Source of the DNA: an uncultured Desulfobacteraceae bacterium
GTDB taxonomy: Bacteria; Desulfobacterota; Desulfobacteria; Desulfobacterales; Desulfobacteraceae
Assembly: GCA_913041495.1 (NCBI GenBank)
Contig: CAJWHT010000022.1
Location: 1 to 43,984 of the forward strand
Direction of reading: 5' to 3'
Length of the DNA: 43,984 nt
The position numbers were made by a program, and so were the translations under genes. This document shows positions 5,101 to 43,984 of the stretch, in pieces (the first letter of the stretch is position 1; each line of letters begins with the position of its first letter). The notes below the pieces were generated by a model. The model did no database searches, was not told the origin of the DNA, and saw only the letters and a list, made by a program, of their open reading frames with translations.

Positions 5101-5663
5101 CAACGAAAGAAAAAGGCAAGGGAACCGGGATTGGATTATCGGTTGTTCATGGTATTGTGGAAAAAATGAATGGCCATATAACAATAGCAAGCAAACTTGG
5201 GGAAGGGACTATAATTAAGGTTTATTTCCCAATTGATAAAGCATTTGAGACTCAAGACACAAAAAGTTCTATCTCTGATTCAATTCAAAAGGGAACAGAA
5301 TCGATTTTACTTGTTGATGATGAAAAGGCCATTGTTCGACTTGAGGAACAGGCTTTACAAAAACTCGGCTATCAGGTGGAATCCAGAACCAGCCCCATTG
5401 AGGCGTTGGCGGCTTTCAGAGCAAAGCCAAATGCATTTGATTTGATTTTAACAGATTTATCTATGCCGAAAATGAATGGTGCTGTATTTGCGGCAGAAAT
5501 TCAGAATATTAGAGCAGATATCCCTATTATTTTGTTAACAGGTTTCAGTGATAAGTTGACCCTGGAGGAAATGAAAGCGTCGGGCATAAAAGAACTCGTA
5601 ATGAAACCTGTGGTTATGAAAGATCTTTCCAACAAAATTAGGCAGGTTATAGATGCACATTAG
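2157..5663 (+). CDS. Hybrid sensor histidine kinase with GAF, two PAS and a receiver domain
   Basis: A 1168-residue hybrid kinase. Transmembrane segments near residues 18-38 and 285-308 enclose an extracytoplasmic sensor region. A coiled coil (about 315-370) follows, then a GAF domain (about 380-540) and two PAS domains (about 545-665 and 670-785). The phosphoacceptor is His803 in the GIAHDFNN motif. The ATPase domain shows an N-box around NLATNAYHAM, then DTGCGI and GKGTGIGLS. A C-terminal receiver domain (about 1045-1165) carries Asp1100 in the TDLSMPKMNG motif. The start is TTG at 2157, with GAGGAA a few bases upstream. With the preceding heme-c sensor it probably forms one signalling unit. 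No DNA-binding output is encoded nearby, so phosphotransfer to an unlinked partner is likely. Confidence 0.92.
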   Translation: MKEDNTKNFTKNLRRNLFLYMACILLIFSFFLIITTARPIYERLKESENNNVLHHSEVRAMAVNEWIRHAMDIAVQVTSRTRIRQELEKYNKGKISLAQLKAFTEPKLSDAMNISKEIVGITRLDNSGKPVAHCGEIITSLPSGSDYTGYFDTFLSTPIVQNGYHMVIVSAPILNRSKTYVGADLVLINLYQLKNIIANKASSAKVSKTVLGYRYDGAVYGVFTEIKKIKSDMVKDFLMRSFTGQAGIDDSSPEFVAAYQHLDIKNWGLVDLKNKTELYKTLNEKLIYWVLTGFFIYILFLLGFWFLMKPMAGKLLLHADELENKIEEKTYELKKEIEKRKKASVELEKNIGQRKQIESDLKIALEDAHFVRRKESALLEASQKILFCSTFEEAARNIFDKCTKLIGAKSGYVALLAENGQENEVLFLESGGLPCDVDPSLPMPIRGLREVAYLNNDVAYDNHFADSQWADYMPEGHVHLKNVLFAPIAINNRTIGLIGMANKVEDFTENDAKIARSFGELAAVALTYVRIQDNLNKSEEKYRLAFLTSPDAINLNRLEDGMYIEINEGFTKIMGYSRQDTIGKSSVDLNIWNNKTDRERLVEGLQTNGIVENLEAEFISKSGDIKTGLMSARVLNIENENIILSITRDITDKKEIEKKLIKSEEQYREYFEENPAGSYISTPDGQLIACNREYLKIFGFTSKQDAFQTPISLLFEDPNERMTFVNEISRDLYLVNKETTLKRVDGSSVTVVENASGLFDKDGKLKHIRGFLLDISKQKRLEVQIQQTQKMESIGTLAGGIAHDFNNILFPIIGYSELLIGEIPKEQTSFHKSLEQIYKSAMRAKELVQQILTFSRQEKTEYSPLKIHIIVKEVLKLLRSTIPKDIEIKQLIDPSCRPIYANPTQIHQVVMNLATNAYHAMEAGGGELTIELKEVNVERQSGPQSFDPSQIPAGFYTQLKVSDTGCGISPELIEKIFDPYFTTKEKGKGTGIGLSVVHGIVEKMNGHITIASKLGEGTIIKVYFPIDKAFETQDTKSSISDSIQKGTESILLVDDEKAIVRLEEQALQKLGYQVESRTSPIEALAAFRAKPNAFDLILTDLSMPKMNGAVFAAEIQNIRADIPIILLTGFSDKLTLEEMKASGIKELVMKPVVMKDLSNKIRQVIDAH

Positions 5664-5701
5664 AAGCATCACTACAGTGAAGCAGAGAACGGTGATAAAT
5701 T

Positions 5702-6685
5702 TTAACCACCAATAGAAGTCATGTGGCTTATGGGCACATCCTTCGGGGTGCGGCTGTCCAGGTCGTGGGACAGGGGTTTTTGGGTCAGGGCGTCGATCAT
5801 GATCTGTTTGAGGGCATCGTCGTTCGCACCGTCCCGCAGGGGTTTTAGAATGTCGGTTTCGTAGTTTTTCAGCAGGCAGGGGCGCAGGGTGCCTCTGGAG
5901 GTGAGGCGAAGGCGGTTGCATTCGCTGCAAAAGTGGGAGGAAACCGGGGTGATGAAGCCCAGGATGCCACGGGCGTTTTCCAGGCTAAATTTTTTGGCCG
6001 GGCCGTCGTTTTTCTCCCGTTCCACCGGGGATAGGGGGCCGTGGGCTGCGATGATCCTGTCCTGGATTTCCCGGGTCAGCATCTGCTGCTGTTTTTCCAC
6101 GTCAGAATCTCCCATGGGCATGTACTCGATGAAGCGGACATGGAAGGGGTATTCCTTGGTGAGGCCGGCGATGGCCTGGATCTCGTCGTCGTTGATGCCC
6201 CGAAGGGCCACGGCATTGATTTTGATGGGGGCGATGCCCATGTCATGGGCGGTCAGGATGGCGTCCCAGACCTGGTGAAAGCGGTCCCGCCCGGTGATCC
6301 GGGCGAACTTTTCCGGGTCCAGGGTGTCCAGGCTGAAGTTCAGCCGGCGGATGCCCATGTCCAGCAGGCGCCGGATCTTATCCCGGTTCAGCAGGGCGCC
6401 GTTGGTGGTGACGGAGACATCGGTGAGGCCGTCGAGCCCGCACAGTTGTTCCAGGAAGGGGAGAATCCCTTTGCGGACAAAGGGTTCTCCCCCCGTGATT
6501 CTTACCTTGGTGATCCCCAGTTCGCAGGCCAGCCGCGTTATCCTTAAAATTTCCTCATACCGGGCAATTTTATGGTGCTCAATTACCTTGAAGGGGGTTG
6601 AGGGAATACAATACTTACATCTGAAATTGCACCGGTCGGTGACCGAGATTCTCAGATAGTTGATGGAGCGGTTGCCTGCGATCAT
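5702..6685 (-). CDS. moaA: GTP 3',8-cyclase MoaA (molybdenum cofactor biosynthesis)
   Basis: A radical-SAM enzyme of 327 residues, the usual length. It converts GTP to 3',8-cyclo-7,8-dihydro-GTP, the first step to molybdopterin. The N-terminal radical-SAM cluster motif is CNFRCKYC (Cys19, 23, 26) and the ITGGEP SAM-binding motif follows. The C-terminal cluster is ligated by CSECNRLRL and a later RPC cysteine. The chain ends in the Gly-Gly tail typical of MoaA. The start has AAAGGA upstream. It is the last gene of the fmdB-hemC-cobA/hemD-moaA run, 24 bases after cobA-hemD, and converges on the hybrid kinase with a 38-base gap. Confidence 0.96.
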   Translation of the reverse strand: MIAGNRSINYLRISVTDRCNFRCKYCIPSTPFKVIEHHKIARYEEILRITRLACELGITKVRITGGEPFVRKGILPFLEQLCGLDGLTDVSVTTNGALLNRDKIRRLLDMGIRRLNFSLDTLDPEKFARITGRDRFHQVWDAILTAHDMGIAPIKINAVALRGINDDEIQAIAGLTKEYPFHVRFIEYMPMGDSDVEKQQQMLTREIQDRIIAAHGPLSPVEREKNDGPAKKFSLENARGILGFITPVSSHFCSECNRLRLTSRGTLRPCLLKNYETDILKPLRDGANDDALKQIMIDALTQKPLSHDLDSRTPKDVPISHMTSIGG

Positions 6686-6709
6686 ATCGTGATCCTTTGG
6701 GTGTGCGCT

Positions 6710-8239
6710 TTATTCCCGGCCGTAGTGGGCCAGGAGGGCGTCAATCAGTCCCTGGATGGTATAGGGATCTGCCTCTACTGCGGGCTCAAGTCCCAGTGAT
6801 CTTGCCGTATCCGAGGTGATGGGGCCGATACTGGCCAGGGTCACGTCTTTGAGCAGTGCCGGGCCGTCCTCGCCGTCCAGCAGCGACATGAAGTTGCTCA
6901 CTGTGGATGAAGAGGTAAAGGTCACCGCATCGATACCGTCAGTTTTTAACAGATCAATCAGGGTTTCCTTGCCGTCGTCAGCCAGTTCGGTTTCATAGGC
7001 CGTGACCTCATCCACCAGGGCACCCATTCGGGTCAGTTCTTCGGGCAGGATGGTCCGGGCTTTTTTGGCCCGGGGCAGCAGTACGTTTTTCCCCTCGATA
7101 TCCACATCCTTGAAGGCGTCAACCACCGATTCCGCCCGGTAGGTTTCCGGCAGGATATCGGAGATGATACCGTAATCGGCCAGGCGTTCCTTGGTCACCG
7201 GCCCGATGCAGGCGAATTTCAGGTGGCCCAGGGCACGGACATCCTTGCCCTTGGCAAAGAGGGTGTCAAAGAAGAACTTCACGCCGTTTACAGAGGTCAG
7301 CACCAGCCATTCGTACTTGTCCAGATTATCAATGGCCTGCGCCAGGGGGGCGATGTCCTTGGGCGGGGCAATCCGGATGGTGGGAATTTCGATGCACTGG
7401 GCACCCAGGCGGGTCAGCTCGGCCACAAGACCGGAGGCCTGGGCCCGGGCCCGGGTGATAACGATGCGTTTGCCGAACAGGGGTTTGCGGTCAAACCAGG
7501 CCAGCTCTTCCCTGAGGCTGACCACATGGCCCACCACAATGATGGCAGGGGATTTGAGGCCGGCTTTTTCCACCACATCCACGATGGTTTCAAGGGTGCC
7601 GGTGACGGTCTGCTGCCGGGTGGTGGTGCCCCATCTGACCAGGGCCACCGGGGTATCGGCGGGTTTGCCGTTGGCCATGAGGTTCTTCACAATGTTGGCC
7701 AGGTTCTTGACCCCCATGAGAAAGACCAGGGTGGCGTCGGACTTGGCAAATATGTCCCACTGCATCCGGGATTCTTTTTTGTCCGGCCGTTCGTGGCCGG
7801 TGATAAAGGATACAAATGAGGTGTGGTCCCTGTGGGTCACCGGAATGCCGGCGTAAGCCGGGGCGGAAATGGCAGATGTAACGCCGGGAACAACCTCGTA
7901 GGATACGCCGTACTCCAGCAGTTCCTGGGCTTCTTCTCCACCGCGGCCGAACACGAAGGGATCGCCGCCCTTGAGACGGGCCACATTCTTGCCTTCCTTT
8001 GCCTTGTCCACCAGCAGCAGGTTGATCTTGTCCTGGGTCAGGGTGTGGTCCCCGCCTTTTTTGCCCACGTAAATGATTTCCGCATCTTTGCGGGCATATT
8101 CAAGAAGGTAGGGGGAGGCCAGGTAGTCGTAAACCACGACATCGGCCGTTTCAATGCATTCCTTGGCTTTGATGGTGAGCAGTCCCGGGTCTCCGGGGCC
8201 GGCACCGATGAGAAAGACCTTGCCCGTATTAGTTGTCAT
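6710..8239 (-). CDS. cobA-hemD: Fused uroporphyrinogen-III C-methyltransferase / uroporphyrinogen-III synthase
   Basis: A 509-residue fusion. Residues about 5-245 are the SAM-dependent uroporphyrinogen-III methyltransferase (CobA/SUMT), with VFLIGAGPGDPGLLT at the N-terminus, GGDPFVFGRGGEE and the VVPGVTSA motif. It makes precorrin-2 for siroheme, cobalamin and, in sulfate reducers, the alternative heme route. Residues about 255-505 are uroporphyrinogen-III synthase (HemD), which cyclises hydroxymethylbilane and has the poorly conserved sequence typical of that family. This fusion is common in anaerobic bacteria. It overlaps the end of hemC by 11 bases, which suggests translational coupling, so two consecutive tetrapyrrole steps are made from adjacent genes. 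Confidence 0.95.
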   Translation of the reverse strand: MTTNTGKVFLIGAGPGDPGLLTIKAKECIETADVVVYDYLASPYLLEYARKDAEIIYVGKKGGDHTLTQDKINLLLVDKAKEGKNVARLKGGDPFVFGRGGEEAQELLEYGVSYEVVPGVTSAISAPAYAGIPVTHRDHTSFVSFITGHERPDKKESRMQWDIFAKSDATLVFLMGVKNLANIVKNLMANGKPADTPVALVRWGTTTRQQTVTGTLETIVDVVEKAGLKSPAIIVVGHVVSLREELAWFDRKPLFGKRIVITRARAQASGLVAELTRLGAQCIEIPTIRIAPPKDIAPLAQAIDNLDKYEWLVLTSVNGVKFFFDTLFAKGKDVRALGHLKFACIGPVTKERLADYGIISDILPETYRAESVVDAFKDVDIEGKNVLLPRAKKARTILPEELTRMGALVDEVTAYETELADDGKETLIDLLKTDGIDAVTFTSSSTVSNFMSLLDGEDGPALLKDVTLASIGPITSDTARSLGLEPAVEADPYTIQGLIDALLAHYGRE

Positions 8240-32450: not shown

Positions 32451-33458
32451 CTACCATTTGGCAAAATGCTCTTCCACCACCCCGGCGGTATCTGTCAGGG
32501 TGAGGCTGTGGCCGGCATCGGTTCTGATCTGCCCGTCAAACCGGCCGCAAGGCTGGATAAAGCGGCTGGCCACCAGCCCGAAATTGTCGTTGGCGCTACG
32601 CTTTCCTTCCGGGAAAAACCTGAGATTTATTTTCCGGTCCTTGGATGTGATCTTCCAGGGAGTGAGCGGCTGGGCTGTGTCATAGTCGTAATCTACGGCC
32701 GCCACGGGTTCCGGTTGTCCGTTCACCCACAGGGTGTTTTCCAGGGTGCCGTTTTCATAGACGCCCCGGGACAGGTTGAATCCCACCTTTGTTTTTTTAT
32801 CGCCCGTTTCAGGATCTGAGGCAAAGCCGGCTCCGCAGGTCCAGTTCCAGAAGGTTTTACGGTGGTAGGCCCCGTGGGTCCAGTCGTAAAGGGCAAAGGT
32901 CTGTTCCGGATCAAGGATGAATGTTCGTCCTGCGGCCCGTATTTGTCCCCGGGCGGGAATCCCTGCGGCCTTGGTGGTGAATGCGGCTTTTCCCTGCCCC
33001 ATATCCATGGGAAAGTGCATGGGAGAAAAGGTTCCGGCAGTTTCTGCCAGACGAATATCCGCAAGAAGATCCGCAGTATCCAATTCTATCCTTGCCTGCC
33101 TGCCGTTGGTGTCAAGATCTCCGGAAAATTCAATGCGCCGTTTCCCCTCCTTGAACCTGCAGATACCGGAGGCAGAGTGCCGGTCGTACCGGACCCTGCC
33201 CATGGGCGGCCTGACAAAATTGGCTTCGGTCATAATCCTGCGTTCCCGGTCAAAGCAGAAGCTAAAGGCACTGGTAATGTATCCCAGGTGGATAACGGCG
33301 GCACCGAAGAATAGTTCCGGCGATACGATCCCAAGGTAACACCAGCGTTTCTCCGTGACCCGGTTTTTCAGGGTGGCGGTGCCGGACAGAGGCAGGCCGG
33401 TAATGCCGGTGGTATCCGCAAGTCCGAAAGGGCCGGACCAGGGCTGCGTCACCTTCAT
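32451..33458 (-). CDS. DUF2804-family protein
   Basis: A 335-residue protein recognised as DUF2804 by its overall composition and segments such as KRWCYLGIVSPELFFGAAVIHLGY and HGAYHRKTFWNWTCGAG. It is predicted to be a beta-rich lipocalin-like fold with several Trp and Tyr, and has no membrane segment. Its function is unknown. It overlaps the tag stop by 4 bases (ATGA), so it is co-translated with the glycosylase gene; no functional link is known. Confidence 0.78.
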   Translation of the reverse strand: MKVTQPWSGPFGLADTTGITGLPLSGTATLKNRVTEKRWCYLGIVSPELFFGAAVIHLGYITSAFSFCFDRERRIMTEANFVRPPMGRVRYDRHSASGICRFKEGKRRIEFSGDLDTNGRQARIELDTADLLADIRLAETAGTFSPMHFPMDMGQGKAAFTTKAAGIPARGQIRAAGRTFILDPEQTFALYDWTHGAYHRKTFWNWTCGAGFASDPETGDKKTKVGFNLSRGVYENGTLENTLWVNGQPEPVAAVDYDYDTAQPLTPWKITSKDRKINLRFFPEGKRSANDNFGLVASRFIQPCGRFDGQIRTDAGHSLTLTDTAGVVEEHFAKW

Positions 33459-34207: not shown

Positions 34208-34771
34208 TTATTTCTTTTTGATCAGGTCAACATCGCCGAGTGATGTCCCGATTTTCATCATCCAGCGGGACATGCCCACATTGACCCCAAGAAAAGTCGT
34301 CTGAATCAATTCGGTGATGTATCCGAATTGATCCATCGTATCAAAATAGGCAAATCTGGTGACGGCCTTGCCTTTTGTTTCAAAGGTCCCATGCTGAAGA
34401 AGCTTGAATCCTTCCTTTTTTAAAATATTGATCTTCTCGGATAATTGGGTGACGACAAACCCAATATGATGGATGCCGTGGCCCGGGTCACGGATGAAGT
34501 CCGTATAAACATTTTCATCCCCACGGATTACCTGAATTAATTCAAACTGCAGGCGCCCGCTGTATCCCACAACAATATCCAAATCAAGATCAATGGGGTT
34601 GCCCAGATAGTGAATATTCTTTTTGGCAATTTTGGCTCTATACCAGCAAGAGATGTTCAAGAGGGCTGAATAATGGTCCACCGCATTGGTGATGTCCTTT
34701 ACGATGATTCCCAATTGCTCCACAGGCGGCAGGCCAAGTCTTTTTAGTTCCAATGAATTTGTCGGCGTCAT
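34208..34771 (-). CDS. VOC (glyoxalase/bleomycin-resistance fold) protein
   Basis: A 187-residue VOC protein with two beta-alpha modules: QLGIIVKDITNAVDHYSALL, then IHHIGFVVTQL. Possible metal ligands are a Gln in VEQLGII, the Glu or Gln of RLQFELIQ, a His in GIHHIGF, and the Glu of ITELIQT. This Gln/Glu/His/Glu set resembles glyoxalase I more than methylmalonyl-CoA epimerase, which has His first. The reaction is unknown, but isomerisation or epimerisation of an alpha-hydroxy-thioester or ketone fits the neighbouring ThDP enzyme and SDR. ATG 34771 has AAGGAAG upstream. It is the last gene of the five-gene minus-strand operon. Confidence 0.8.
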   Translation of the reverse strand: MTPTNSLELKRLGLPPVEQLGIIVKDITNAVDHYSALLNISCWYRAKIAKKNIHYLGNPIDLDLDIVVGYSGRLQFELIQVIRGDENVYTDFIRDPGHGIHHIGFVVTQLSEKINILKKEGFKLLQHGTFETKGKAVTRFAYFDTMDQFGYITELIQTTFLGVNVGMSRWMMKIGTSLGDVDLIKKK

Positions 34772-34812
34772 ATCTTCCTTTTTTACAATATATTGAAAAA
34801 TGTTTCGAAACG

Positions 34813-35787
34813 CTATTGGTAACAGGTGTCCACCCATTTTTTGATTTGCATCATTGCCTCCTCCTGAGAAACGCGGCTGTCCCATTCAAGCTCCTGGCGC
34901 GCCCGGGTTGTATCGACACTGAGGTCTTTTTCCATGACGCCTACACCCAGCCGCGTTATCGGAGGGCGGATGCCAAAAGGGACCAATGTTTTTTCAAAAA
35001 TGGTTCCCAGAAACCAGGCCAGCCAAAATGGGATGCTGTTTTTCGGAGATTTCCCTATCCAACCGCTGATTGTTTTTAAATACTGCGCCCAGGTCAGGGA
35101 ATAATTGTCACCCAGAAAATAGGTTTTTCCTTTTGCAATATCTAAGAAGCCGGCCCGGGTTATGCCATCCACAAGGTTGTCAATATAAATAAAAGAACTG
35201 GGTGAACGGCCCTTATTGATCAGTGGAAATGGACCCCTTTTAAACGCATCCAGAATTTCTTTCACCCATACGCTTCCTGGGCCGAAAACGTTTGTGGGAC
35301 GGATAATGGTATACTCTATTTCTTCCCTTTTACAAAAGCTTGTCACCAGATCTTCGGCCTGAATTTTTGTATCGCAATAAGGAATTCCGCACATTTTAGG
35401 TTCAGCATCTTCATTTAAACCGGCCAGATCCCTGCCAAGCCCCATGCAGGCAACAGAAGAGCAATAGACAAACCGTTTTATATGCCCTTTGGAGTGTTCA
35501 AGAAGATTGCGGGTACCGTCCACCATGATGGCTTCAAATTGTTGCCTGGTCCCCCAGTCCAGGGTGCGGGCTGCCAGATGAAATACCAGGTCAATTCCGT
35601 TGGCAACACCCTCAAGTGTCTGCGGCCGGGTGAGATCTCCTCGAAAAATGTCAACCCCCAGCCTTGTCAGATTCCGGCTATCCTCCTGCGGCAAGAGCAG
35701 CCCCCGTACGTTATACCCGCCTCTCACCAGGGATTTTGTCAGATGGAATCCGATAAACCCGGCAGCACCCGTGATAAGAATATTCAT
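34813..35787 (-). CDS. NAD-dependent epimerase/dehydratase (extended SDR)
   Basis: A 324-residue extended SDR. The NAD-binding motif is ITGAAGFIGFHL, and the active site shows VYCSSVA and a YCDTK tetrad motif. The C-terminal half, including IPFWLAWFLGTIFE, recalls 3-beta-hydroxysteroid dehydrogenase or OleD-like members of the family, which act on hydrophobic hydroxy/keto compounds rather than on nucleotide sugars. That substrate class is only inferred. ATG 35787 has AAAGGAAA six bases upstream. It follows the ThDP enzyme gene by 64 bases and precedes the VOC gene by 41. Confidence 0.85.
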   Translation of the reverse strand: MNILITGAAGFIGFHLTKSLVRGGYNVRGLLLPQEDSRNLTRLGVDIFRGDLTRPQTLEGVANGIDLVFHLAARTLDWGTRQQFEAIMVDGTRNLLEHSKGHIKRFVYCSSVACMGLGRDLAGLNEDAEPKMCGIPYCDTKIQAEDLVTSFCKREEIEYTIIRPTNVFGPGSVWVKEILDAFKRGPFPLINKGRSPSSFIYIDNLVDGITRAGFLDIAKGKTYFLGDNYSLTWAQYLKTISGWIGKSPKNSIPFWLAWFLGTIFEKTLVPFGIRPPITRLGVGVMEKDLSVDTTRARQELEWDSRVSQEEAMMQIKKWVDTCYQ

Positions 35788-35851
35788 ATGATTTCCTTTA
35801 TCAGCTCCGGCATTCAACCGTGTTGATAACCGGAGCATAATGAGTTCCCGA

Positions 35852-37519
35852 TTAAAAATCAGAAAGATTCTGATAAAACATTGCCGTTGCCGGACTGACC
35901 ACCGTAGGGTCGGTGATCACGTTGATACAGGCTGGTTTGCCGGAATCCACCGCCCGTTTTATCGCCGGAATGATATCGTCGTCTTTTTTAACAAATTCCC
36001 CGTAGCCCCCCAGTTCTTCAACTATTTTTTCATAGTGGCGAAGTTCCAGTTCTGAACAGGTACACCGGTCATGGCCGATACTCATCTCCTGTGAATGTTT
36101 GATCATTCCCCAGGCACAGTCATTGTTGATGACGCATACCACCGGGATGTTATGGCGTACCATGGTATCGAACTCCATGCAGTTCATACCAAAAGAACCG
36201 TCACCATGGAGAAGGATCACGGGCTTGCCAGGGTTGGCAAGTTTTGCTGCCATGGCAAACGGAATACCGGTACCAAGGCATCCCAGCAGGGATCCTGCCG
36301 GTGCCAGCACGCCGGCCCGGTGGTCGGACATAAACCCTGTCATGCCGTAATAACTGGTATCCCCGCCGTCGGAGATATAATAGGCATCCGTCCCGATTTC
36401 GGTCATGATCTGTTGGGTCAGCCGCAGGGGAAGGATGGGGTCGGAGACGGTGTTTTTTTGTTCGGTCTCCGTCACCAGCATTGCCTGGTAGGCATTTTTC
36501 ACCGTTTCTATCCAGGGGCTGTGATCCGCTTTTTTTACCAACGGGGTCAGCCGTTCAAAAATATCGCCGCAGTCCCCTGCCAACCCCACCTGGGAGGTCC
36601 TCATGTTGTCCAGTTCGGCCGGATCAATGTCAATGCGGATAACCTTTGCCTGGGGGAAAAGCTTGGTGGCCTGCATAACCCAGCTGAACCGAATGCCGGC
36701 GGCAATGATGACATCGGCCTGGGGCGCCACGGCGGCCACGGCCGTAAACCCCCCGTCATTCATACAAAGGGCATGGGAATCTGGCAATGCCCCCCGGCCG
36801 TTGTTCAACAGGGCAAAGGGAAAGCCGATCTTTTCGATAAATTGTTTAAAGGCATCATCCTGATTGCTGAATCCCACACCGCTCCCCCCGATAAACAAGG
36901 GTTTTTTGGCGTTATCGATAAGATGGGCCGCCGCCTTAAGCTCGGACTCATGGGGCAGTACCCGTGTCCTGTGGGTCCGCTTTTCAGGAAAGACCAGGTT
37001 TTTTTCATCCATTGAGACAAAAAGGATATCCGGGGGCAGCTCCAGGAAGACAGGGCCGGGCCGTCCTGTGACGGCCTGCCTGAAGGCTGTGGCAAGGTAT
37101 TCGGGAATCCGTGCAATATCATAGCAGGTGGCCTGCCATTTGGTGATGGGTTTGACCATATCAATCTGGTTTATCTCCTGCAGGGCCAGGGTATTATCAT
37201 CCCGCAACGGGTGGCGGCCGCAAAGGACCACCAGGGGGGCTGCGTCCAGAAAGGCGTTTGCAATACCTGACACGGCATTGGTAAATCCAGGCCCTGCAGT
37301 TACAAGGCAGACACCGGGTTTGTTTTTATAGATGGACCAGCCGTGTGCCATCATTGCCGCAGCCTGCTCATGCCTGACATCCACCAACCGGACCCCGTAT
37401 TGGTTAAACCCGTCCAGCAGGTTTTCAATATGCCCGCCCGACAGAGTAAATACCGTATCCACCCCTTCCACTTCCTTCATATATTTTGCCGCAATGTGTC
37501 CGCCGAATATTTCAGCCAT
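35852..37519 (-). CDS. ThDP-dependent lyase/acetolactate-synthase-like enzyme (first copy)
   Basis: A 555-residue enzyme of the thiamine-diphosphate family with the usual three domains (N-terminal PYR, central, C-terminal PP). The catalytic Glu is in VRHEQAAAMMAHG. TAGPGFTNAVSG and GRPGPVFLELPPD are shared with acetolactate synthase and 2-hydroxyacyl-CoA lyase (HACL). The ThDP/Mg motif is HGDGSFGMN with a later NND. The segment TLALQEINQIDMV resembles HACL and oxalyl-CoA decarboxylase more than IlvB. A carboligation or C-C lyase reaction on an alpha-hydroxy/oxo acid or acyl-CoA is likely; the substrate is open. It follows the SCP2-like gene by 72 bases. Confidence 0.85.
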   Translation of the reverse strand: MAEIFGGHIAAKYMKEVEGVDTVFTLSGGHIENLLDGFNQYGVRLVDVRHEQAAAMMAHGWSIYKNKPGVCLVTAGPGFTNAVSGIANAFLDAAPLVVLCGRHPLRDDNTLALQEINQIDMVKPITKWQATCYDIARIPEYLATAFRQAVTGRPGPVFLELPPDILFVSMDEKNLVFPEKRTHRTRVLPHESELKAAAHLIDNAKKPLFIGGSGVGFSNQDDAFKQFIEKIGFPFALLNNGRGALPDSHALCMNDGGFTAVAAVAPQADVIIAAGIRFSWVMQATKLFPQAKVIRIDIDPAELDNMRTSQVGLAGDCGDIFERLTPLVKKADHSPWIETVKNAYQAMLVTETEQKNTVSDPILPLRLTQQIMTEIGTDAYYISDGGDTSYYGMTGFMSDHRAGVLAPAGSLLGCLGTGIPFAMAAKLANPGKPVILLHGDGSFGMNCMEFDTMVRHNIPVVCVINNDCAWGMIKHSQEMSIGHDRCTCSELELRHYEKIVEELGGYGEFVKKDDDIIPAIKRAVDSGKPACINVITDPTVVSPATAMFYQNLSDF

Positions 37520-37591
37520 GGTGTTCTCCTTAAATTTTGGTTAAATTTATATATTCGTCTTTTGTTTTGCTTTCCTGGCAATGGCCCAGGC

Positions 37592-37948
37592 CTAACGAAT
37601 GAGCTGGGTGACATCCTGAAACCACTTGGCGTAGAAACTCATCCCCCTGATGCAAAGCCCTCCGTCAGCCGCTGCATTAAATGAGGCATCTGCCTTTGAA
37701 CTTGTGAGGACTTTAAAGCCGATACCGGCATTCTTGAACACCAGGGCGGCATCGTAGTCGTTGTGGAAGCCGCCACAGGATGACACCTTTCCCCTGTCAA
37801 AGGTGAAAAGCCGGGCCCGTTCCCTGTCCCGTGTGGTAATGAGGATGCGTACCTGGGCTTTCCTGACAGCGTGTTTAAACGCTTTATTCAAATGTGAGGC
37901 GATTTTAAGTAATTGCGCGAGACCAAAAAGCAACAGGGTAAATTTCAT
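37592..37948 (-). CDS. Small SCP2-like protein
   Basis: A 118-residue protein starting with a hydrophobic helix (KFTLLLFGLAQLLKIA), possibly a membrane anchor or lipid-contacting helix rather than a cleaved signal. The following part, ILITTRDRERARLFTFDRG and NDYDAALVFKNAGIGFK, has the strand-helix order of SCP2/sterol-carrier domains, which bind fatty acyl or sterol ligands. The match is by eye and tentative. ATG 37948 has AAGGAG about nine bases upstream. It sits 25 bases after the alcohol dehydrogenase gene and before the ThDP enzyme, so a carrier role for a hydrophobic intermediate is possible. Confidence 0.6.
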   Translation of the reverse strand: MKFTLLLFGLAQLLKIASHLNKAFKHAVRKAQVRILITTRDRERARLFTFDRGKVSSCGGFHNDYDAALVFKNAGIGFKVLTSSKADASFNAAADGGLCIRGMSFYAKWFQDVTQLIR

Positions 37949-37973
37949 GTTCTCTTTCTCCTTTTTAATCGTA

Positions 37974-39194
37974 TTAGTCAAACCGGACCAGGGTCTTTAC
38001 GGCACCATGCCCGGCCTTATTCAGGTTCACCTCAATCATTTCCATATACTCTTCAAGCGTGAAGGTGTGGGTTACAAGGGGGGATGTCCGGATCTTTCCC
38101 TGGTTCATGAACTCCATTGCCAGGTCAAATACATGGCGGGTTTCCCCCTGGTAAACCACCCGGCCGTATCCGTATACGCCCTTGATTTGCTGGAGTTTGA
38201 GCCACAGGGGGGTCAGATCCAGTTTGACGTCGCTGCCGATGCCCACAAGGCTCAGGGTGCCAAAGGGCCCAAGGACCCTAAGGCCCATGTTCAAGGTGGC
38301 TGAATTCCCCACGGTATCGTAAATCCGGTCAAACCCTCCCATGAGAACCGGGTGGCCCAGCTGGGGCTGGTGCAAGGTGGCGCCGGTATATTCGGCAGCC
38401 GTCCGGTATACTGCCTTGAAAGGAATAATATCCGCCTGCCCCAACTCTTCGGCCAGACCTGCGGCATGGGCCGCAGGTTCGATCAGGGCGATTCCGGCAC
38501 CGGGACAAAGGGTGCGGACCGCCTGGATCACCAGGTTGCCGATGACCCCGCCGCCGATCACAAGAATTTTGTCAGAAGGTTTAGGGCTATTGTCAAACAC
38601 GGTCTGAAGGGCCACGGCAAGCGGTTCGGTCATGGCCGCAGCCTCCAGGTCAAGCGCGTCCGGGACCTTGAAAAGCTGGCTTTCATGGGCGGCGATATAA
38701 GGCGCAAATCCCCCGGTAATCCCTGAATTAAGCCCTGTGAACATGCCGGGCGGTAAATCGCCTCCGGCAGAATTTTCACAGTTCAGGGAACGGCCTGCGG
38801 CGCAGACCGCACATTGTTCAGGCAGATTCCGGACCGTGCATCCAAGACCCGGGTTTACCGTCACCACATCCCCCAATTCGAATTGGGTTACTTCCGGACC
38901 TTTTTTAATGATCCTGCCAACCGCCTCATGCCCGATAATGCAGGGAAAAGAGGTAAAGGGCGAGGCCGTGGGGGAGTCATGGAGCATCATGAGATTCAGA
39001 TCGCTGCCGCAAAACCCGCAGAAAATGGTTTTCAGCTTGACCCATTGCCCTGTGGGAGCTGCGGGTTCGGGAATTTCCACAAGACGGGTGGTTTTAAAAG
39101 GGCCCTTAAAGTAAACCTTGTTTCCGAAAATGGGCCGGATGGCTTTGGCCGCAATGAATCTTGAGGGTGTTACATTGAACTGCAATGCTTTCAT
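37974..39194 (-). CDS. Zinc-type alcohol dehydrogenase (MDR superfamily)
   Basis: A 406-residue medium-chain dehydrogenase. The catalytic zinc Cys is in FCGFCGSDLN, with the usual GHEAVGRI glutamate/His motif after it. The NAD-binding motif is VIGGGVIGNLVIQ. The structural-zinc loop is only partly kept: CTVRNLPEQCAVCAAGRSLNC has four cysteines. The protein is longer than the usual 340-380. It would oxidise a secondary or primary alcohol or reduce the ketone. It is the first gene of the operon, with a CGGAG site. Its promoter contains a TetR-type palindrome, so expression is presumably induced by a pathway substrate. Confidence 0.9.
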   Translation of the reverse strand: MKALQFNVTPSRFIAAKAIRPIFGNKVYFKGPFKTTRLVEIPEPAAPTGQWVKLKTIFCGFCGSDLNLMMLHDSPTASPFTSFPCIIGHEAVGRIIKKGPEVTQFELGDVVTVNPGLGCTVRNLPEQCAVCAAGRSLNCENSAGGDLPPGMFTGLNSGITGGFAPYIAAHESQLFKVPDALDLEAAAMTEPLAVALQTVFDNSPKPSDKILVIGGGVIGNLVIQAVRTLCPGAGIALIEPAAHAAGLAEELGQADIIPFKAVYRTAAEYTGATLHQPQLGHPVLMGGFDRIYDTVGNSATLNMGLRVLGPFGTLSLVGIGSDVKLDLTPLWLKLQQIKGVYGYGRVVYQGETRHVFDLAMEFMNQGKIRTSPLVTHTFTLEEYMEMIEVNLNKAGHGAVKTLVRFD

Positions 39195-39291
39195 ATCGAT
39201 CTCCGGATGTTGCTTTTTTAAAATTCTGCCCTGCCATGGCTAAGGCGGATTCAGCCGGGTGCTGTGATCTGTTAATTTTGTTTCTGAATGA

Positions 39292-39322
39292 TTTATATGA
39301 ACTATAGTTCGTGTTTTGTAAA
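39292..39322 (-). promoter_or_regulatory. Predicted adh-operon promoter with a TetR-type operator in its spacer
   Basis: On the minus strand a -10-like TATAAA (39297-39292) lies 18 bases from TTACAA (39321-39316). The perfect palindrome GAACTATAGTTC (39299-39310) fills the spacer, a position at which a bound repressor would block RNA polymerase. Confidence 0.55.
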
Positions 39323-39361
39323 TAGAAAATTTTTATTAAAAATAAATAATTATAATTATAA

Positions 39362-39383
39362 TATGAATAATAGTTCGTATTTT
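39362..39383. promoter_or_regulatory. Second, imperfect TetR-type operator copy
   Basis: TATGAATAATAGTTCGTATT matches the first site, TATGAACTATAGTTCGTGTT (39296-39315), except for three positions. The copies are 66 bases apart. This second copy lies 12 bases upstream of the tetR -35 box and suggests cooperative or divergent control by the TetR encoded next to it. Confidence 0.5.
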
Positions 39384-39395
39384 ATTGCTATTGGC

Positions 39396-39424
39396 TTGAA
39401 AAAATAATCGCAAACAGGTACATT
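39396..39424 (+). promoter_or_regulatory. Sigma70-type promoter of tetR-hydrolase
   Basis: TTGAAA (39396-39401) and TACATT (39419-39424) are separated by 17 bases and lie 33 bases before the tetR ATG. Confidence 0.5.
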
Positions 39425-39456
39425 CACTTCACACTTAAATACAACGCGGAGATTAA

Positions 39457-40083
39457 ATGAGCAGCATACGCACCCCCAGGCAAAAAAGAGGGATTGATAC
39501 AAAAGAGCGGATCACCAAGGCGGCCATGGCATTGTTTGCGGAAAGAGGCATTCACGGTACTACTTCAAAACAGATCGCCAAAAAGGCGGGCGTTTCCATT
39601 GGCAGTTTTTATTCCTATTTTAAAAACAAAGAAAAGCTGCTCATCGAAATGCTTGAAGATTATGTGGAAAATCATTATGACGCGGTCTGGCAGGCCCTGG
39701 GAAGCCTTAGGATGGAGACCCTTGGCAGAAATGACTTGCGTACCCTTATTCTGGGGGTGTTCAACGCCTATGAACTGGCACCGGAATTCCACCGCCAGAC
39801 CCACGCATTAAGGTATACGGATCCTGATATAAAACGCATATATGATCGTGAGAGGGAAAGGGAAGTCCGGCAGATTCAGTTTCTCATAGAGCAGAATGCC
39901 GGCCACATGGTCCCGGTAAAGGACAGCAGGGCCGTTGCCATGGTCATCCATAATGCGGTTGAAAATGTGGCCCACACAGCCAAATTTTATGGCACGGATA
40001 TCAGTGAAACTGCCCTGGCAGACGCCCTGGCTGATATGATTGCAGGGTTGCTTCTGGGCAATACGCTTTCGGCGATAAAATGA
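39457..40083 (+). CDS. TetR/AcrR family transcriptional regulator
   Basis: A 208-residue regulator. The DNA-binding domain (about 12-65) shows TKERITKAAMALFAERGIHGTTSKQIAKKAGV and then SIGSFYSYFKNKEKLL. The C-terminal ligand domain is helical with no assigned ligand. It begins after GGAG at five bases. It is divergent from the alcohol dehydrogenase operon, and two copies of a palindrome between them are its probable binding sites. The hydrolase gene overlaps its stop by 4 bases. Confidence 0.93.
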   Translation: MSSIRTPRQKRGIDTKERITKAAMALFAERGIHGTTSKQIAKKAGVSIGSFYSYFKNKEKLLIEMLEDYVENHYDAVWQALGSLRMETLGRNDLRTLILGVFNAYELAPEFHRQTHALRYTDPDIKRIYDREREREVRQIQFLIEQNAGHMVPVKDSRAVAMVIHNAVENVAHTAKFYGTDISETALADALADMIAGLLLGNTLSAIK

Positions 40084-40931
40084 TTCTTCAGGAAATTCAA
40101 ACACAAAACGGATTGATCATGCCAGCCACCCCCATAAACAGTATCCGTTTCAATACACGTTGTACCGGTGAAGGGCCGGCCTTTATCTGGGGGCATGGAC
40201 TCATGGCCAGCATGAAAAGCGAGGATCTTGTTGATCTGTTCGAATGGGACAATTTCCCGGAGACAAACCGGTTGATCCGGTATGATGCCAGGGGGCACGG
40301 GGAAACCCAGCCCACGTTTTTTCCTGAAGACTATCACTGGAAACAACTGGCAAAAGACATGCTGGCAGTGGCCGAAAGCTATGGTGAAACCCGCGTCATT
40401 GCCGGGGGCCAGTCCATGGGCTGTGCCACGGCGATTTATTCCGCCTGTATTGCACCGAAAAAAATAAAAGGCCTGATTCTGGTCAATCCGCCCACAGCCT
40501 GGGAAACCCGGGCAGAACAAGGCAAACTTTACAATAAAATGGCAACCACGGGCCGGCTGCTCGGCGGCGGTATGCTGGCCCGGATGATGCGTAATAAACT
40601 GTCCCGCCTGCTTCCCCAATGGCTGATCGATGCCAAAAAGGGCAGGGTTGAAGGCGCACTCGAAGGTCTGAAACCCTTGAAAAGAAAAACCCTTTTTAAC
40701 CTGTTCAAGGGCGCGGCCCTGACCGATTTGCCTTCCGGCGAAACGATTAAAAAAATCCAGGTACCCTGCCTAATTCTCGGATGGACTGGAGACCCCACAC
40801 ATCCGGTGGAAACAGCAAAAGAGATTCACCGACTGCTTCCTGATTCCGAACTCGTGATTGCCAATGGGTACTCTGATTTTAAGAAATGGCCTGGACTGAT
40901 ACGCGATTTTGTAAAAAACAACGACAAATAA
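40080..40931 (+). CDS. Alpha/beta hydrolase-like protein, catalytic His not evident
   Basis: A 283-residue alpha/beta-hydrolase fold protein. The oxyanion motif is IWGHGLMAS, the nucleophile elbow is AGGQSMGCATA (Ser), and the acid position is LILGWTGDPTHPV. In the place where the family has GGH or GEH, the C-terminus reads VIANGYSDFKKWP, so no clear catalytic His is visible. The protein may be non-catalytic, or may use another residue. The ATG at 40080 overlaps the TetR stop (ATGA); ATG 40119 is an alternative start that would look more like a family N-terminus. It is co-transcribed with the TetR gene and converges on the second ThDP gene. Confidence 0.8.
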   Translation: MILQEIQTQNGLIMPATPINSIRFNTRCTGEGPAFIWGHGLMASMKSEDLVDLFEWDNFPETNRLIRYDARGHGETQPTFFPEDYHWKQLAKDMLAVAESYGETRVIAGGQSMGCATAIYSACIAPKKIKGLILVNPPTAWETRAEQGKLYNKMATTGRLLGGGMLARMMRNKLSRLLPQWLIDAKKGRVEGALEGLKPLKRKTLFNLFKGAALTDLPSGETIKKIQVPCLILGWTGDPTHPVETAKEIHRLLPDSELVIANGYSDFKKWPGLIRDFVKNNDK

Positions 40932-40966
40932 AAAAACAGGACGTGATAGGAGCCACCCGAGCGTTA

Positions 40967-41012
40967 CCGGGGGGCCATGAAATATCAAGACACGAATTTC
41001 ATGGCTCCCGGA
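40967..41012. terminator. Long hairpin between the converging hydrolase and ThDP enzyme genes
   Basis: GCCATGAAAT (40974-40983) and ATTTCATGGC (40996-41005) pair perfectly, and flanking GGG/CCC extends the stem to about 14-16 bp with a G-T pair or bulge. The loop is 12 bases. No T tract follows on either side directly, so it may be a Rho-assisted or bidirectional end, or an RNA-stability hairpin. Confidence 0.45.
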
Positions 41013-41041
41013 AAACGGTTTACGTCAGTCCTTTGATGTTC

Positions 41042-42736
41042 TTAGAGCATTTCAGCCATGGCCAGCGCTTTTGATCCCGGACCGACCACTGCCGGGTCTG
41101 TCATGACATTGATGCAGGTGGTCACATCTGAAGCAAAGGCCTCTTCCAAGGCCGGAATAATATCGTCTGGGGTTTCAACCAGGATGCCTTTACCGCCCAG
41201 TGAGGCCACGGCCTCGTGGTAGGGAGGATTGCCAATCTCCACCGTGCCGGGGATAAAACGGGCGAATTTCATCTGCATGCTGTTTGAGGTCATTCCCCAT
41301 TTCTGGTTATTGTCGATGACCACGACGATGGGCAGATTTTTTCTAAGAGAGGTTTCAATCTCCATGAAATTAAATCCCATGGAACCATCACCGATATACA
41401 CAAGTACCCGGCGATCCGGATTGATTAACTTTGCAGACAATCCATAGGGAAGTCCCACCCCCAGACAGCCAAACAGGGAGGAATCAATGATGTTCAAAGG
41501 TCCAGTGCAGGTTCTTGCTCCTGAAATCCAGGTCTGGGCATCCCCCCCGTCTGCAACGATGATATCATCGTTTCTGTTCATGAATGCATTCACTTTTTCG
41601 GCCAGTAGCCCAGGGTATATAAACCCGGAGGGTTCAACGACCTCCTCCCTGGCGGCAGCTTTCATCTCGCTGTCCGTCCGTGACAAGGTTTCCACCCAGT
41701 CCCGGAATTTATTGCCCGGATTTCCTTTGGTTTCGGATAAAATATCAAGACATTCGCTCAACAGGGCTTTTATATCCCCAAAGACAGGTAGGTCAATTGT
41801 TTTGTTGCGGCCGATCTCCTCAGGTTCAATATCCACCTGGATAATTTTTGCGTCCGGCTTGTAAAAAGCGCCAAAGACATTGTAAAGACAAAGCCGGTTA
41901 CCCAGGAGAATCACCAGGTCAGACTCTGTTGTGGCCATTCCTGCGCATCCCGGAAGGGTGGGCACGGAAGCGCCAAAACAAAGGGGATGGGTGTCCGGGA
42001 TTATTCCTCTCCCCATTTTTATGGTAAACACAGGGATCCCGGTCTTTTCAACAAAGCTGCGCAGTTCAGGGCCGGCATCCGAATAATGAATTCCGCTGCC
42101 GGCAAAGATAACCGGCTGTTTGGCCTCCCTGATCATTTCCATCATTCTGCGGGCATCGTTTTTGTCCACGGGCCTGGAGGATACTTTGGTAGAGATATGA
42201 TTCACCTTTGACGGGTCAACATCGCCGTCCAGGACATCAATGGGAAGTTCAAGAAACACAGGGCCGGGCCTGCCCTGGCCCGCAAAACGAAACGCCATGT
42301 CAATATATTCGGGAATCCGTTCCGGTTTTCGGCAGACAAAGGATTTTTTCACAATGGATTCTATGATAGGCCTCTGGCGCATATCCTGCAGCCCGAGCCT
42401 GTCCGGTGATTTAGGGCCGTGGGCCCCAGCAATAAGGACCATGGGGGCATTTGTCATCTGGGCGTTCACCATGGGGGATATGGTGTTGGTGAATCCGGGG
42501 CCGAAGGTGACAAGAACAACCCCCGGCTTTCCCGTCATCCGGCCGTAGGCTTCCGCCATGAAGGCCGCCGCCTGTTCATGCCGGGCAGTAATGATCTCTA
42601 TTGGCGTCTTCTCAACCGCATATTGAACCGGGCTGATACTTTCGCCGGGAACGCCGAAGATATACTCAACCCCGGCGTTTAAAAATGCATCACTGATCAA
42701 CCCCCATCCTTTTAATTTCTCATGTTGTTCGTTCAT
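41042..42736 (-). CDS. ThDP-dependent lyase/acetolactate-synthase-like enzyme (second copy)
   Basis: A 564-residue ThDP enzyme. The catalytic Glu is in TARHEQAAAFMAEAYG, GPGFTNTISPMV and GRPGPVFLELPID follow, and the ThDP/Mg motif is IGDGSMGFN with a later DNN. It differs clearly from the first copy, with GVPGESISPV at the N-terminus instead of TLSGGHIENL, and it shares the GLQDMRQR segment position. A carboligase or 2-hydroxyacyl-CoA lyase role is plausible; acetolactate synthase is possible but there is no ilvC nearby. An AGGAG site lies 11 bases before the ATG. It follows an extended-SDR gene by 34 bases, so ThDP enzyme and SDR are paired here as in the first operon. Confidence 0.85.
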   Translation of the reverse strand: MNEQHEKLKGWGLISDAFLNAGVEYIFGVPGESISPVQYAVEKTPIEIITARHEQAAAFMAEAYGRMTGKPGVVLVTFGPGFTNTISPMVNAQMTNAPMVLIAGAHGPKSPDRLGLQDMRQRPIIESIVKKSFVCRKPERIPEYIDMAFRFAGQGRPGPVFLELPIDVLDGDVDPSKVNHISTKVSSRPVDKNDARRMMEMIREAKQPVIFAGSGIHYSDAGPELRSFVEKTGIPVFTIKMGRGIIPDTHPLCFGASVPTLPGCAGMATTESDLVILLGNRLCLYNVFGAFYKPDAKIIQVDIEPEEIGRNKTIDLPVFGDIKALLSECLDILSETKGNPGNKFRDWVETLSRTDSEMKAAAREEVVEPSGFIYPGLLAEKVNAFMNRNDDIIVADGGDAQTWISGARTCTGPLNIIDSSLFGCLGVGLPYGLSAKLINPDRRVLVYIGDGSMGFNFMEIETSLRKNLPIVVVIDNNQKWGMTSNSMQMKFARFIPGTVEIGNPPYHEAVASLGGKGILVETPDDIIPALEEAFASDVTTCINVMTDPAVVGPGSKALAMAEML

Positions 42737-42770
42737 CTGACTTCGGCTCCTGTTCTATTAAGCGTTACGG

Positions 42771-43748
42771 TTATATGAGCTTTTCTTGTTTAAGCCATAG
42801 ATGACAGTCCGTCACCATTTCCAAAATCGTTGTTGTGCTGAATCCTAAGGCACGTCTGGCTTTGGTATCGTCACAGGTGAGGTGGCCCACCAGGCGCAGG
42901 TATTTGGGATAGGTCATCAACGGTTCTTGCCGGGTGATGAATGATGCGGCCAGGGAGGTGTATAAAATCAGTTTCAATCTGGTTTTTGAGATCTCCTTTA
43001 ACGGCAGTCCTGCACCGGTGACCTTGAGAATATCCGAAATAACATCCCTGAAACTTGCCCGGGTGCCCCCAAGGAGGTAGTTTTCCCCCTTTTCCCCGTT
43101 TTCAACAGCGGATATATGGGCCCGGGCAATATCTTTGGCATGTGAAAAGGTGCCGACCCCTGGCGGATAGCCAGGCAGTTTGCCGGAACAGACATTTTTT
43201 ATCAATTGTGACCAGTTGCCCGGGTCATAGGGACCGATAATATTACAGGGGTTTAAGATGACGGCAAAAAGCCCTTCTTGAACCGCCTTTTGCACCTCCT
43301 GTTCTGCCAGGTATTTGGTCCGGTTGTAACTCATCCCGCAGCCCAGGGCATTTGACGGTGTCTTTTCGGTCAGCTTGTGGTTATGGTACCCGTATGCAGA
43401 GCTTGAAGAGGTATGAATGAAGCGGACGGCTTTTTTATTAATGGCTTCCCTGCACATGTTTGTCGTGCCGACAACGTTGATATTGAATTGTCTTTCATCA
43501 TTTTTTTTCCACATGCTGATATCGCCTGCCAGATGGAAAATCGCATCCGGTTGATCCGGTATTGCCCTTTTCAAGGATGCTGGATCCAGGATATCCCCCT
43601 CAACCTTATCAACGTCGAAGCGGTCAAGGAATTTTGTATTCTCCCCGGGCAGATGAAGGGCCGTGATATGCCAGTTTTCAGCTTTAAGCTGCTGGATAAG
43701 ATTCAGCCCTAAGAATCCGGTGCCACCGGTAATAAATCCCGTTTTCAT
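42771..43748 (-). CDS. NAD-dependent epimerase/dehydratase (extended SDR, second copy)
   Basis: A 325-residue extended SDR. NAD binds at FITGGTGFLGLNLIQ. The active site has HTSSSSAYGY and MSYNRTKYLAE (Tyr-x-x-x-Lys). FHLAGDISMWKK and ILNPCNIIGPYD are typical of the dihydroflavonol-reductase/3-beta-HSD branch. Substrate is unknown. ATG 43748 is preferred for spacing to the AAGGGGG site; ATG 43751 and 43763 are alternatives in the same frame. It is the first gene of a pair with the second ThDP enzyme and probably has its own promoter in the 230 bases upstream. Confidence 0.86.
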   Translation of the reverse strand: MKTGFITGGTGFLGLNLIQQLKAENWHITALHLPGENTKFLDRFDVDKVEGDILDPASLKRAIPDQPDAIFHLAGDISMWKKNDERQFNINVVGTTNMCREAINKKAVRFIHTSSSSAYGYHNHKLTEKTPSNALGCGMSYNRTKYLAEQEVQKAVQEGLFAVILNPCNIIGPYDPGNWSQLIKNVCSGKLPGYPPGVGTFSHAKDIARAHISAVENGEKGENYLLGGTRASFRDVISDILKVTGAGLPLKEISKTRLKLILYTSLAASFITRQEPLMTYPKYLRLVGHLTCDDTKARRALGFSTTTILEMVTDCHLWLKQEKLI

Positions 43749-43984
43749 CATTTCCCCCTTCATGCAGACATACGCAAGGATACAAGTATAAGTGATGCCT
43801 ATTCAGCAGCGATCTGTAATGAAAAAAGGTTAAAGGAATGTTTGGTGGCGGTAATTAACCCCAAAACAAGCGCATTTATAAAAATAATGGGCTCATCCCC
43901 GCCTAGTTAGAAATCCATATTGAGTAATTTTTTTCTGGAGGCCAGACCCTTTCAGAAAATCGCACCTCACCCTGAAAACATCGG
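43749..43984. other. Upstream region of the SDR-ThDP pair, window edge
   Basis: No coding region is supported on either strand. The sequence is AT-rich and should hold the promoter of the SDR-ThDP gene pair. No copy of the GAACTATAGTTC operator of the neighbouring TetR was found here, so this pair may be regulated separately. Confidence 0.35.

Follow-up and report, generated by a model that had tools for sequence, protein, structure and literature searches.

The window analysed here is the whole of contig CAJWHT010000022.1 (C22; 43,984 nucleotides), one of 328 contigs in the 5.77 Mb genome of an uncultured Desulfobacteraceae bacterium (GCA_913041495.1; completeness 99%, contamination 4.6%). 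Nine genes at 34.2-43.8 kb include two for thiamine diphosphate (ThDP) enzymes, ThDP1 and ThDP2, each beside a gene for an extended short-chain dehydrogenase/reductase (SDR). ThDP1 belongs to a tightly packed five-gene operon on the minus strand at the right end of the contig, which also encodes a zinc-type alcohol dehydrogenase (ADH), a small SCP2-like protein, an SDR (SDR1), and a vicinal oxygen chelate (VOC) metalloprotein. A divergent TetR-family gene is separated from the operon by two operator-like palindromes. A preliminary description of the DNA, made from its letters only, had the coordinates and domains of its genes right, but did not include the alpha/beta hydrolase gene at 40080..40931. 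All nine genes are open frames and, with the exception of the SCP2-like gene, which has no Pfam match and was confirmed by its predicted fold only, carry the expected Pfam domains. The features are listed below.

37974..39194, minus strand: ADH, medium-chain dehydrogenase of the zinc type, encoded at the head of the operon (Pfam ADH_N and ADH_zinc_N)
37592..37948, minus strand: SCP2-like lipid-carrier protein (predicted); start at the invariant Met at 37948, open frame extending to 37981
35852..37519, minus strand: ThDP1, benzaldehyde-lyase-like, 555 residues; three TPP_enzyme domains; His30, Glu51, Gln114
34813..35838 (probable start 35787), minus strand: SDR1, extended SDR of the HpnA/OleD/3beta-HSD kind (Pfam Epimerase, 3Beta_HSD)
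34208..34885 (probable start 34771), minus strand: VOC metalloprotein (Pfam Glyoxalase_4) with a glyoxalase-I-like Q/E/H/E ligand set
39457..40083, plus strand: TetR-family regulator, divergent from the operon (Pfam TetR_N)
39297..39312: operator-like palindrome ATGAACTATAGTTCGT, close to the ADH promoter
39363..39378: second operator-like palindrome ATGAATAATAGTTCGT, on the tetR side
40080..40931, plus strand: alpha/beta hydrolase (Pfam Abhydrolase_1), overlapping the end of tetR by 4 bases
41042..42736, minus strand: ThDP2, 564 residues, TPP_enzyme domains; sister family, with Ser (GES motif) at the position of His29 of benzaldehyde lyase
42771..43763 (probable start 43748), minus strand: SDR2, extended SDR directly upstream of ThDP2 (Pfam Epimerase)

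Clear ribosome-binding sites precede the SCP2, ThDP1, and ThDP2 genes. In the case of SCP2, AAGGAG lies upstream of the assigned start, whose Met is invariant across 48 sequences. ThDP2 and SDR2 are adjacent on the same strand.

A scan of a genome collection revealed 78 loci encoding relatives of ThDP1, with 56-81% identity over the best segments. Partner genes within 4.5 kb were counted at the 39 loci having at least 2.6 kb of flanking sequence on both sides of ThDP1, and 16 loci around paralogues of ThDP2 served as the control under identical thresholds. An SCP2-like gene is found near ThDP1 at 37 of the 39 full-flank loci and an ADH gene at 32, the latter counted at a threshold of 200 bits, by which locus L071 was scored as lacking ADH although a weaker match sits 1.4 kb downstream. 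The other partners are an SDR of the SDR1 type (13/39), a VOC protein of either type (11/39), and a TetR regulator (12/39). Over all 78 loci, many of which are cut by contig ends, the counts are 66 for SCP2, 58 for ADH, 21 for the SDR1 type, 22 for VOC, and 18 for TetR. None of the 16 control loci has an SCP2, ADH, SDR1-type, or VOC match at the same thresholds; four of them contain distant ADH genes (24-26% identity). The gene order, whose conservation the preliminary description had named as a check, is conserved; the core unit is ADH-SCP2-ThDP1, and the SDR and VOC genes are optional.

The cassette occurs in two arrangements. In the first, to which the window belongs, a divergent TetR gene precedes ADH, SCP2, and ThDP1, optionally followed by SDR1 and VOC (TetR< ADH> SCP2> ThDP1>, then SDR1> VOC>); in the second, optional VOC and SDR1 genes lie upstream and ADH is last (VOC> SDR1>, then SCP2> ThDP1> ADH>). 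The complete order of the window is also present in L011 and L023, with a weaker VOC match in L022 and with a second VOC type in L016. The hosts of ThDP1 are mainly Desulfobacterales, Syntrophaceae/Smithella, and Spirochaetes, among them the named strains Desulfosarcina widdelii PP31 and Desulfatibacillum alkenivorans DSM 16219. Single matches labelled Myxococcota, Gammaproteobacteria, Bacillota, or Clostridia come from metagenome-assembled genomes and are possibly misbinned. Strong matches to ThDP1 (E 1e-150 or less) are found in none of 18 genomes of the same genus and none of 17 other genomes of the same family, in 4 of 59 relatives and 22 of the 395 genomes sampled from the phylum (both counts including the window's own genome), and in 22 of 247 genomes of the phylum of genome G482, itself included. 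The distribution of the cassette is thus patchy.

Variants of the cassette were also observed. A ThDP1 subfamily in L178 and L179 (53-54% identity) has a divergent TetR gene and a downstream SDR gene (supported by Pfam for L178), with no SCP2-like match. In L033 of Desulfatibacillum alkenivorans (5276-7907), SCP2 and ThDP1 stand without an adjacent ADH gene, and the neighbours are a second TetR gene, two genes resembling SDR1 (43%) and acetoacetate decarboxylase, respectively, and a gene that looks SDR-like by eye.

ThDP1 and ThDP2 are both full-length, three-domain enzymes, 35% identical to each other. In a tree of 44 rows they form separate, fully supported clades (100/100 each), and are therefore not recent duplicates; the preliminary description had called the enzymes divergent and their module duplicated. 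A large group comprising ThDP1, ThDP2, benzaldehyde lyase (BAL), 2-hydroxyacyl-CoA lyase (HACL), and oxalyl-CoA decarboxylase (OXC) is split from IlvB, IlvI, Gcl, and PoxB by a 100/99 branch. Within it, the HACL/OXC rows form a 100/100 clade excluding both window enzymes, and BAL, on a long branch, groups with plasmid proteins of Variovorax and Rhodococcus (100/100). Since ThDP1 falls outside this BAL clade, we call it BAL-like and not a BAL. A profile of 23 ThDP1 sequences compared with PDB sequences has its best match in BAL of Pseudomonas fluorescens (PDB 2ag0, EC 4.1.2.38) at 335 bits, followed by HACL (328 bits), OXC (at most 319 bits), and acetolactate synthases (at most 269 bits).

His29 and Gln113 of BAL are kept in ThDP1 as His30 and Gln114, which align in 15 of 15 rows and are invariant in the 23 sequences. 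All 15 ThDP1 rows share the His of BAL position 29 with 8 of 8 rows of the ThDP2 paralogues (the family being represented by the 8 of its 16 loci placed in the alignment), with BAL itself, and with three of four plasmid relatives, that of Bosea being the exception. It is missing from the five E. coli references (IlvB, IlvI, Gcl, OXC, and PoxB) and from the three HACL/HACS rows. ThDP2 lacks the BAL-type His, with Ser in a GES motif at this position in 5 of 5 rows. The conserved ThDP Glu is present in ThDP1 (Glu51) and also in HACL/OXC, whose C-domain segment (NNGGIG or NNNGIY) differs from the NNDCAWGM- or NNQKWGM-like segment of ThDP1 and ThDP2. As in the window operon, two plasmid relatives in the BAL clade adjoin SDR-type genes and ADH or aldehyde dehydrogenase genes. 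ThDP1 differs from BAL by its own clade and by its SCP2-like partner, none being listed in these two annotated plasmid neighbourhoods, and the aromatic substrate of BAL would not be expected for it. Cyclohexane-1,2-dione hydrolase of Azoarcus, described in PMC12247030 as a C-C cleaving ThDP enzyme with an engineered His28, offers an analogy only and is absent from the sequence comparisons made here.

The SCP2-like protein of the window has no Pfam or NCBIfam match at E 0.001, and the profile of its family gives a single match among PDB sequences (E 1.1), which is not an SCP2. An AlphaFold2 model generated from a 48-member alignment nevertheless displays a pLDDT of 96.1. The best Foldseek match of this model is UbiJ-SCP2 (E 1.3e-6), one of 33 matches at E of 0.001 or less that also include alkylsulfatases, and its best VIA-align matches are human SCP-2L structures such as that of MFE-2 (1ikt), with a Z of 13.1 and an rmsd of 2.3 over 109 aligned residues. 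The protein is thus confidently predicted to adopt the SCP2 fold and, given fold matches without library matches, would represent an SCP2 sequence family that Pfam and NCBIfam do not recognise. It shares its predicted fold with the UbiJ and MFE-2 domains at 12-18% identity in the alignments listed, and differs from them in having no Pfam match and in being a stand-alone gene between ADH and the ThDP enzyme. The structural relative 1pz4 holds a C16 fatty acid according to its structure title, and the modelled fold makes a lipophilic cargo a reasonable expectation.

Among the NCBIfam models listed, none comes near its cut-off with the ADH (IolM is highest, at 114 of 450 bits), and SDR1 reaches 143 bits with HpnA and 122 bits with OleD, both under cut-off. 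In the VOC protein, E115, H140, and E192 are invariant in 11 rows and the Q before LGI is conserved. This Q/E/H/E set, which we take to be the metal ligands by comparison with glyoxalase I, is kept in two distinct VOC subtypes.

The pairing of ThDP enzymes with SDRs extends beyond the window. In 5 of 5 loci checked outside the window, which do not include that of a sixth genome (G568), the gene directly upstream of ThDP2 encodes an SDR2 homologue. Around the ThDP2 paralogues, a different, classical SDR is directly upstream in 12 of 16 loci (supported by Pfam for one), and is absent in L125, L127, L134, and L136. Because one kind of partner is thus drawn from two SDR classes, the arrangement suggests that the substrate or product of the ThDP enzyme is an alcohol/ketone pair. 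Transporter genes lie near some ThDP2 or paralogue genes, of the SBF family in L119 and L121 and of the MFS family in L120 and L055 (after an MCP gene in L055). In L122 and L135, an SGGH-type paralogue with its upstream classical SDR is close to a second ThDP gene that resembles sulfoacetaldehyde acetyltransferase by eye; second ThDP genes (26-28%) were also seen in L123, L125, L129, L132, and L136.

Both ThDP1 and a member of the ThDP2 family (ThDP2 or its paralogue; E 1e-150 or less) are encoded in 8 of 394 genomes of the phylum sample with the window's own genome dropped (ThDP1 in 21, ThDP2 family in 26; Fisher p 1.4e-5), and in 13 of 246 genomes of the phylum of G482 with G482 dropped (21 and 15; p 1.4e-14), both p values being uncorrected for kinship. 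Strict orthologues of ThDP2 (at least 58% identity) are present in six further genomes (G094, G443, G109, G472, G482, and G568), of which all but G109 also have ThDP1. Judged by its coordinates, G094 is the same genome as G465, the D. alkenivorans genome of locus L033; ThDP1 loci had likewise led to G472 and G482. The two ThDP genes are 3.5 kb apart in the window and about 5.3 kb apart in L055. Only 3 of the 50 genomes reached through ThDP1 loci have a strict ThDP2, which is therefore the rarer partner.

At the other loci that carry it, the TetR gene occupies the same divergent place. Across loci, the stretch that separates TetR from the cassette repeatedly contains a TTGACAATATGAAC...TTCATA-like block, with the exact string TGACAATATG in 11 of 18 readable TetR-cassette regions, and sites related to the first palindrome (39297..39312) lie upstream of the cassette in other loci. 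In the whole window, operator-like matches with at most two mismatches number 6 against 1.8 expected, a count reached in 2 of 100 shuffles. The simplest reading is a promoter-overlapping operator through which TetR would repress the operon. Elsewhere in the genome, 18 sites per strand were found at one mismatch and 7 in the reversed control; we claim no regulon from these counts.

Taken together, these observations seem to favour, with a probability that we put at roughly 40%, a TetR-repressed, inducible operon that would cut (or join) a C-C bond of a lipophilic alpha-hydroxyketone, or acyloin; here we infer the substrate, the direction, the order of steps, and the repression from the genes and their families. 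The SCP2 protein, judging from its fold, would hold the hydrophobic substrate, while ADH and/or SDR1, as expected of their families, would catalyse the conversion, in either direction, between the hydroxyketone and a hydrophobic alcohol or vicinal diol. The VOC metalloprotein may shift or epimerise the alpha-hydroxycarbonyl through glyoxalase-I-like enediol chemistry, as its ligand set would allow. ThDP1 would then attack the carbonyl and split the bond into two aldehydes, as BAL does with benzoin, or else carboligate, a step proposed because of its family, His30/Gln114, and the profile score. The ThDP2-SDR2 pair may be a linked module of the same broad chemistry, with another substrate and an altered active site. 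In favour of the acyloin reading are the SCP2 fold and its near-constant presence, the BAL-best profile and the BAL-29 His, the VOC ligand set, the ThDP-SDR pairing, the recurring operator/promoter motif, and the SDR-type and dehydrogenase neighbours of the two plasmid relatives. A few loci contain neighbours that hint at acyl chains and also count towards this reading. In L012, L024, and L025, TetR is followed on the same strand by a gene for acyl-CoA thioesterase II (with Pfam support for that of L024 only), and in L039 the gene after SDR1 encodes an AMP-dependent ligase, a homologue of which is present in L036. We lean towards cleavage over ligation because the cassette is patchy and self-contained and has a recurring repressor-operator arrangement.

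Several observations weigh against this reading. The SDR and VOC genes are absent from most loci, ADH from 7 of 39, and SCP2 from 2. BAL leads HACL by just about 7 bits in the profile search, ThDP1 lies outside the BAL clade, and searches with single sequences place an HACL-type protein first for ThDP1 and for ThDP2. The best NCBIfam model of both enzymes, PRK05858, is named acetolactate synthase, although both score below its cut-off. The catalytic role of His29 and Gln113 of BAL is presumed here and was not shown by the literature searched, and the TetR-ADH region of the window itself lacks the exact string found in the 11 other loci. According to PMC3534367, a Gln at the BAL 113 position is common in the superfamily; on its own it says little.

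The same gene anatomy would also serve biosynthesis, with ThDP1 joining two fatty aldehydes, or an aldehyde and pyruvate, into a long-chain acyloin that SDR1 and ADH reduce to a diol or VOC isomerises, to give a lipid, signal, or storage compound. SDR1 resembles the lipid-biosynthesis enzymes OleD and HpnA, and a wax-ester synthase (WS/DGAT) is encoded in 14 of 51 ThDP1 genomes, none of which carries a cassette of the kind with ADH after ThDP1. Among the 395 genomes sampled from the phylum, however, the 22 genomes with ThDP1 and the 14 with WS/DGAT overlap in G000 and G387 only, which amounts to no association, and no conserved reductase or transferase is seen beside the cassette; we consider this direction unlikely. 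Wax-ester metabolism as a general function was rejected on this overlap of two and on the 59 relatives, where only G000 among the eight genomes with WS/DGAT has ThDP1. Rather less likely still is a 2-hydroxyacyl-CoA lyase or synthase, in which ThDP1 or ThDP2 would split a 2-hydroxyacyl-CoA into formyl-CoA and an aldehyde, as in alpha-oxidation, or add formyl-CoA to a carbonyl. HACL is close to BAL in profile score, is the best single-sequence match of both enzymes, and shares with them the larger tree group and the ThDP decarboxylase superfamily, and SCP2 folds are known from MFE-2. Yet ThDP1 and ThDP2 stand outside the HACL/OXC clade, whose rows have other residues in the C-domain segment and at the position of the BAL His; no conserved formyl-CoA gene was seen, and L036 and L039 are the only loci with an AMP-dependent ligase close to the cassette. 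The preliminary description had named the 2-hydroxyacyl-CoA lyase and carboligase types. Its general idea that a ThDP enzyme forms or breaks a C-C bond is favoured, and of its two options the BAL-like one fits ThDP1 somewhat better than the HACL one by profile and residues.

The remaining explanations fit poorly. Matches of the SDRs to 3Beta_HSD, HpnA, and SdmB, together with the SBF transporters that L119 and L121 encode in the vicinity of ThDP2 or its paralogue, could point to steroid, hopanoid, or bile-acid metabolism, with SCP2 carrying a sterol-like substrate, 3beta-HSD-like SDR1 and SDR2, and SBF importing a bile-acid-like anion. The SBF and SCP2 folds serve many ligands, which counts against this, and a hopene cyclase is above cut-off in 2 of the 51 ThDP1 genomes (5 at E 1e-60) and was not found in the window's own genome, making the proposal improbable. 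A slightly poorer prospect is acetolactate synthase or another pyruvate-based housekeeping carboligase. PRK05858 is the best NCBIfam model, but at 413 bits for ThDP1 and 344 for ThDP2 it stays below its 587-bit cut-off, as do TIGR00118 (329 and 323 of 538 bits) and, for ThDP2, AlsS TIGR02418 (267 of 551 bits). E. coli IlvB and IlvI are split off in the tree, no small regulatory subunit is present among the nine genes, and the genome has a separate enzyme that groups with IlvI (own_L004, 94/81). The preliminary description had named two findings that would count against it, firm clustering of both ThDP enzymes with catabolic acetolactate synthases and a gene order conserved nowhere; as the order is conserved and neither enzyme groups with IlvB or IlvI, neither was found, AlsS being absent from the tree and assessed through its profile scores alone. 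Ketone activation of the sort described for sulfate reducers that use acetone, which the preliminary description had raised only as an analogy, is not supported beyond that and is very improbable. The organisms are similar, and according to PMC7888143 an acetone-induced ThDP enzyme is annotated there as acetolactate synthase. The cluster of Desulfococcus biacutus and Desulfosarcina cetonica encodes a B12 mutase and a 77.6 kDa ThDP enzyme (PMC7888143); the nine genes at 34.2-43.8 kb, to which the search for a mutase was confined, include none, and have smaller ThDP enzymes and different partners. Acetolactate synthesis, acetone activation, and hopanoid metabolism were set aside as poor fits on the scores, the tree, the cluster comparison, and the hopene cyclase counts.

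The acyloin reading can be carried further, to a cross-phylum anaerobic pathway, as yet undescribed, in which a BAL-like ThDP lyase would receive its substrate, a long-chain alpha-hydroxyketone or diol, from a dedicated SCP2 carrier, beside a companion ThDP-SDR module whose ThDP enzyme would have traded the BAL-type His for a new reaction. This fuller version is doubtful. We found no counterpart of the cassette in the open-access literature searched, in agreement with the preliminary description, which knew of no pathway with this set. The cassette may represent a conserved chemistry by which sulfate reducers, syntrophs, and spirochaetes act on C-C bonds of hydrophobic compounds under anaerobic conditions, where oxygenases are unusable. 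If so, it would extend the ThDP lyases by a lipid-carrier-coupled branch, assign a metabolic role to a new SCP2 sequence family, and make the GES-motif enzymes a ThDP family in which the His of a catalytic position is replaced while the partner-SDR arrangement is kept. The name of the nearest model, acetolactate synthase, is not supported by the evidence for either ThDP1 or ThDP2.

In the wider neighbourhoods, of which part of the genes are annotated, no gene common to many loci was seen beyond the cassette, and the alpha/beta hydrolase of the window is not conserved with it (listed in none of the 78 other loci). By eye, neighbour clusters 6 and 8 look antisense to SCP2/ThDP1 and cluster 7 is a sensor kinase. 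Clusters 9-18, some of them ATP-synthase-like by eye, are common to four or five loci of what appears to be a single lineage (L012, L014, L015, and L021, with cluster 9 also in L016). Elsewhere in the window, positions 1-6000 have a G+C content of about 0.40, compared with 0.53-0.59 at 6-34 kb, and the two genes there encode sensory proteins, with PAS/HAMP domains and a hybrid histidine kinase. A MoaA-type radical SAM protein with a Mob_synth_C domain is encoded at 5702-6685; it has weaker matches to prokaryotic viperin models and is most likely an ordinary MoaA. A DUF2804 protein is encoded at 32451-33458.

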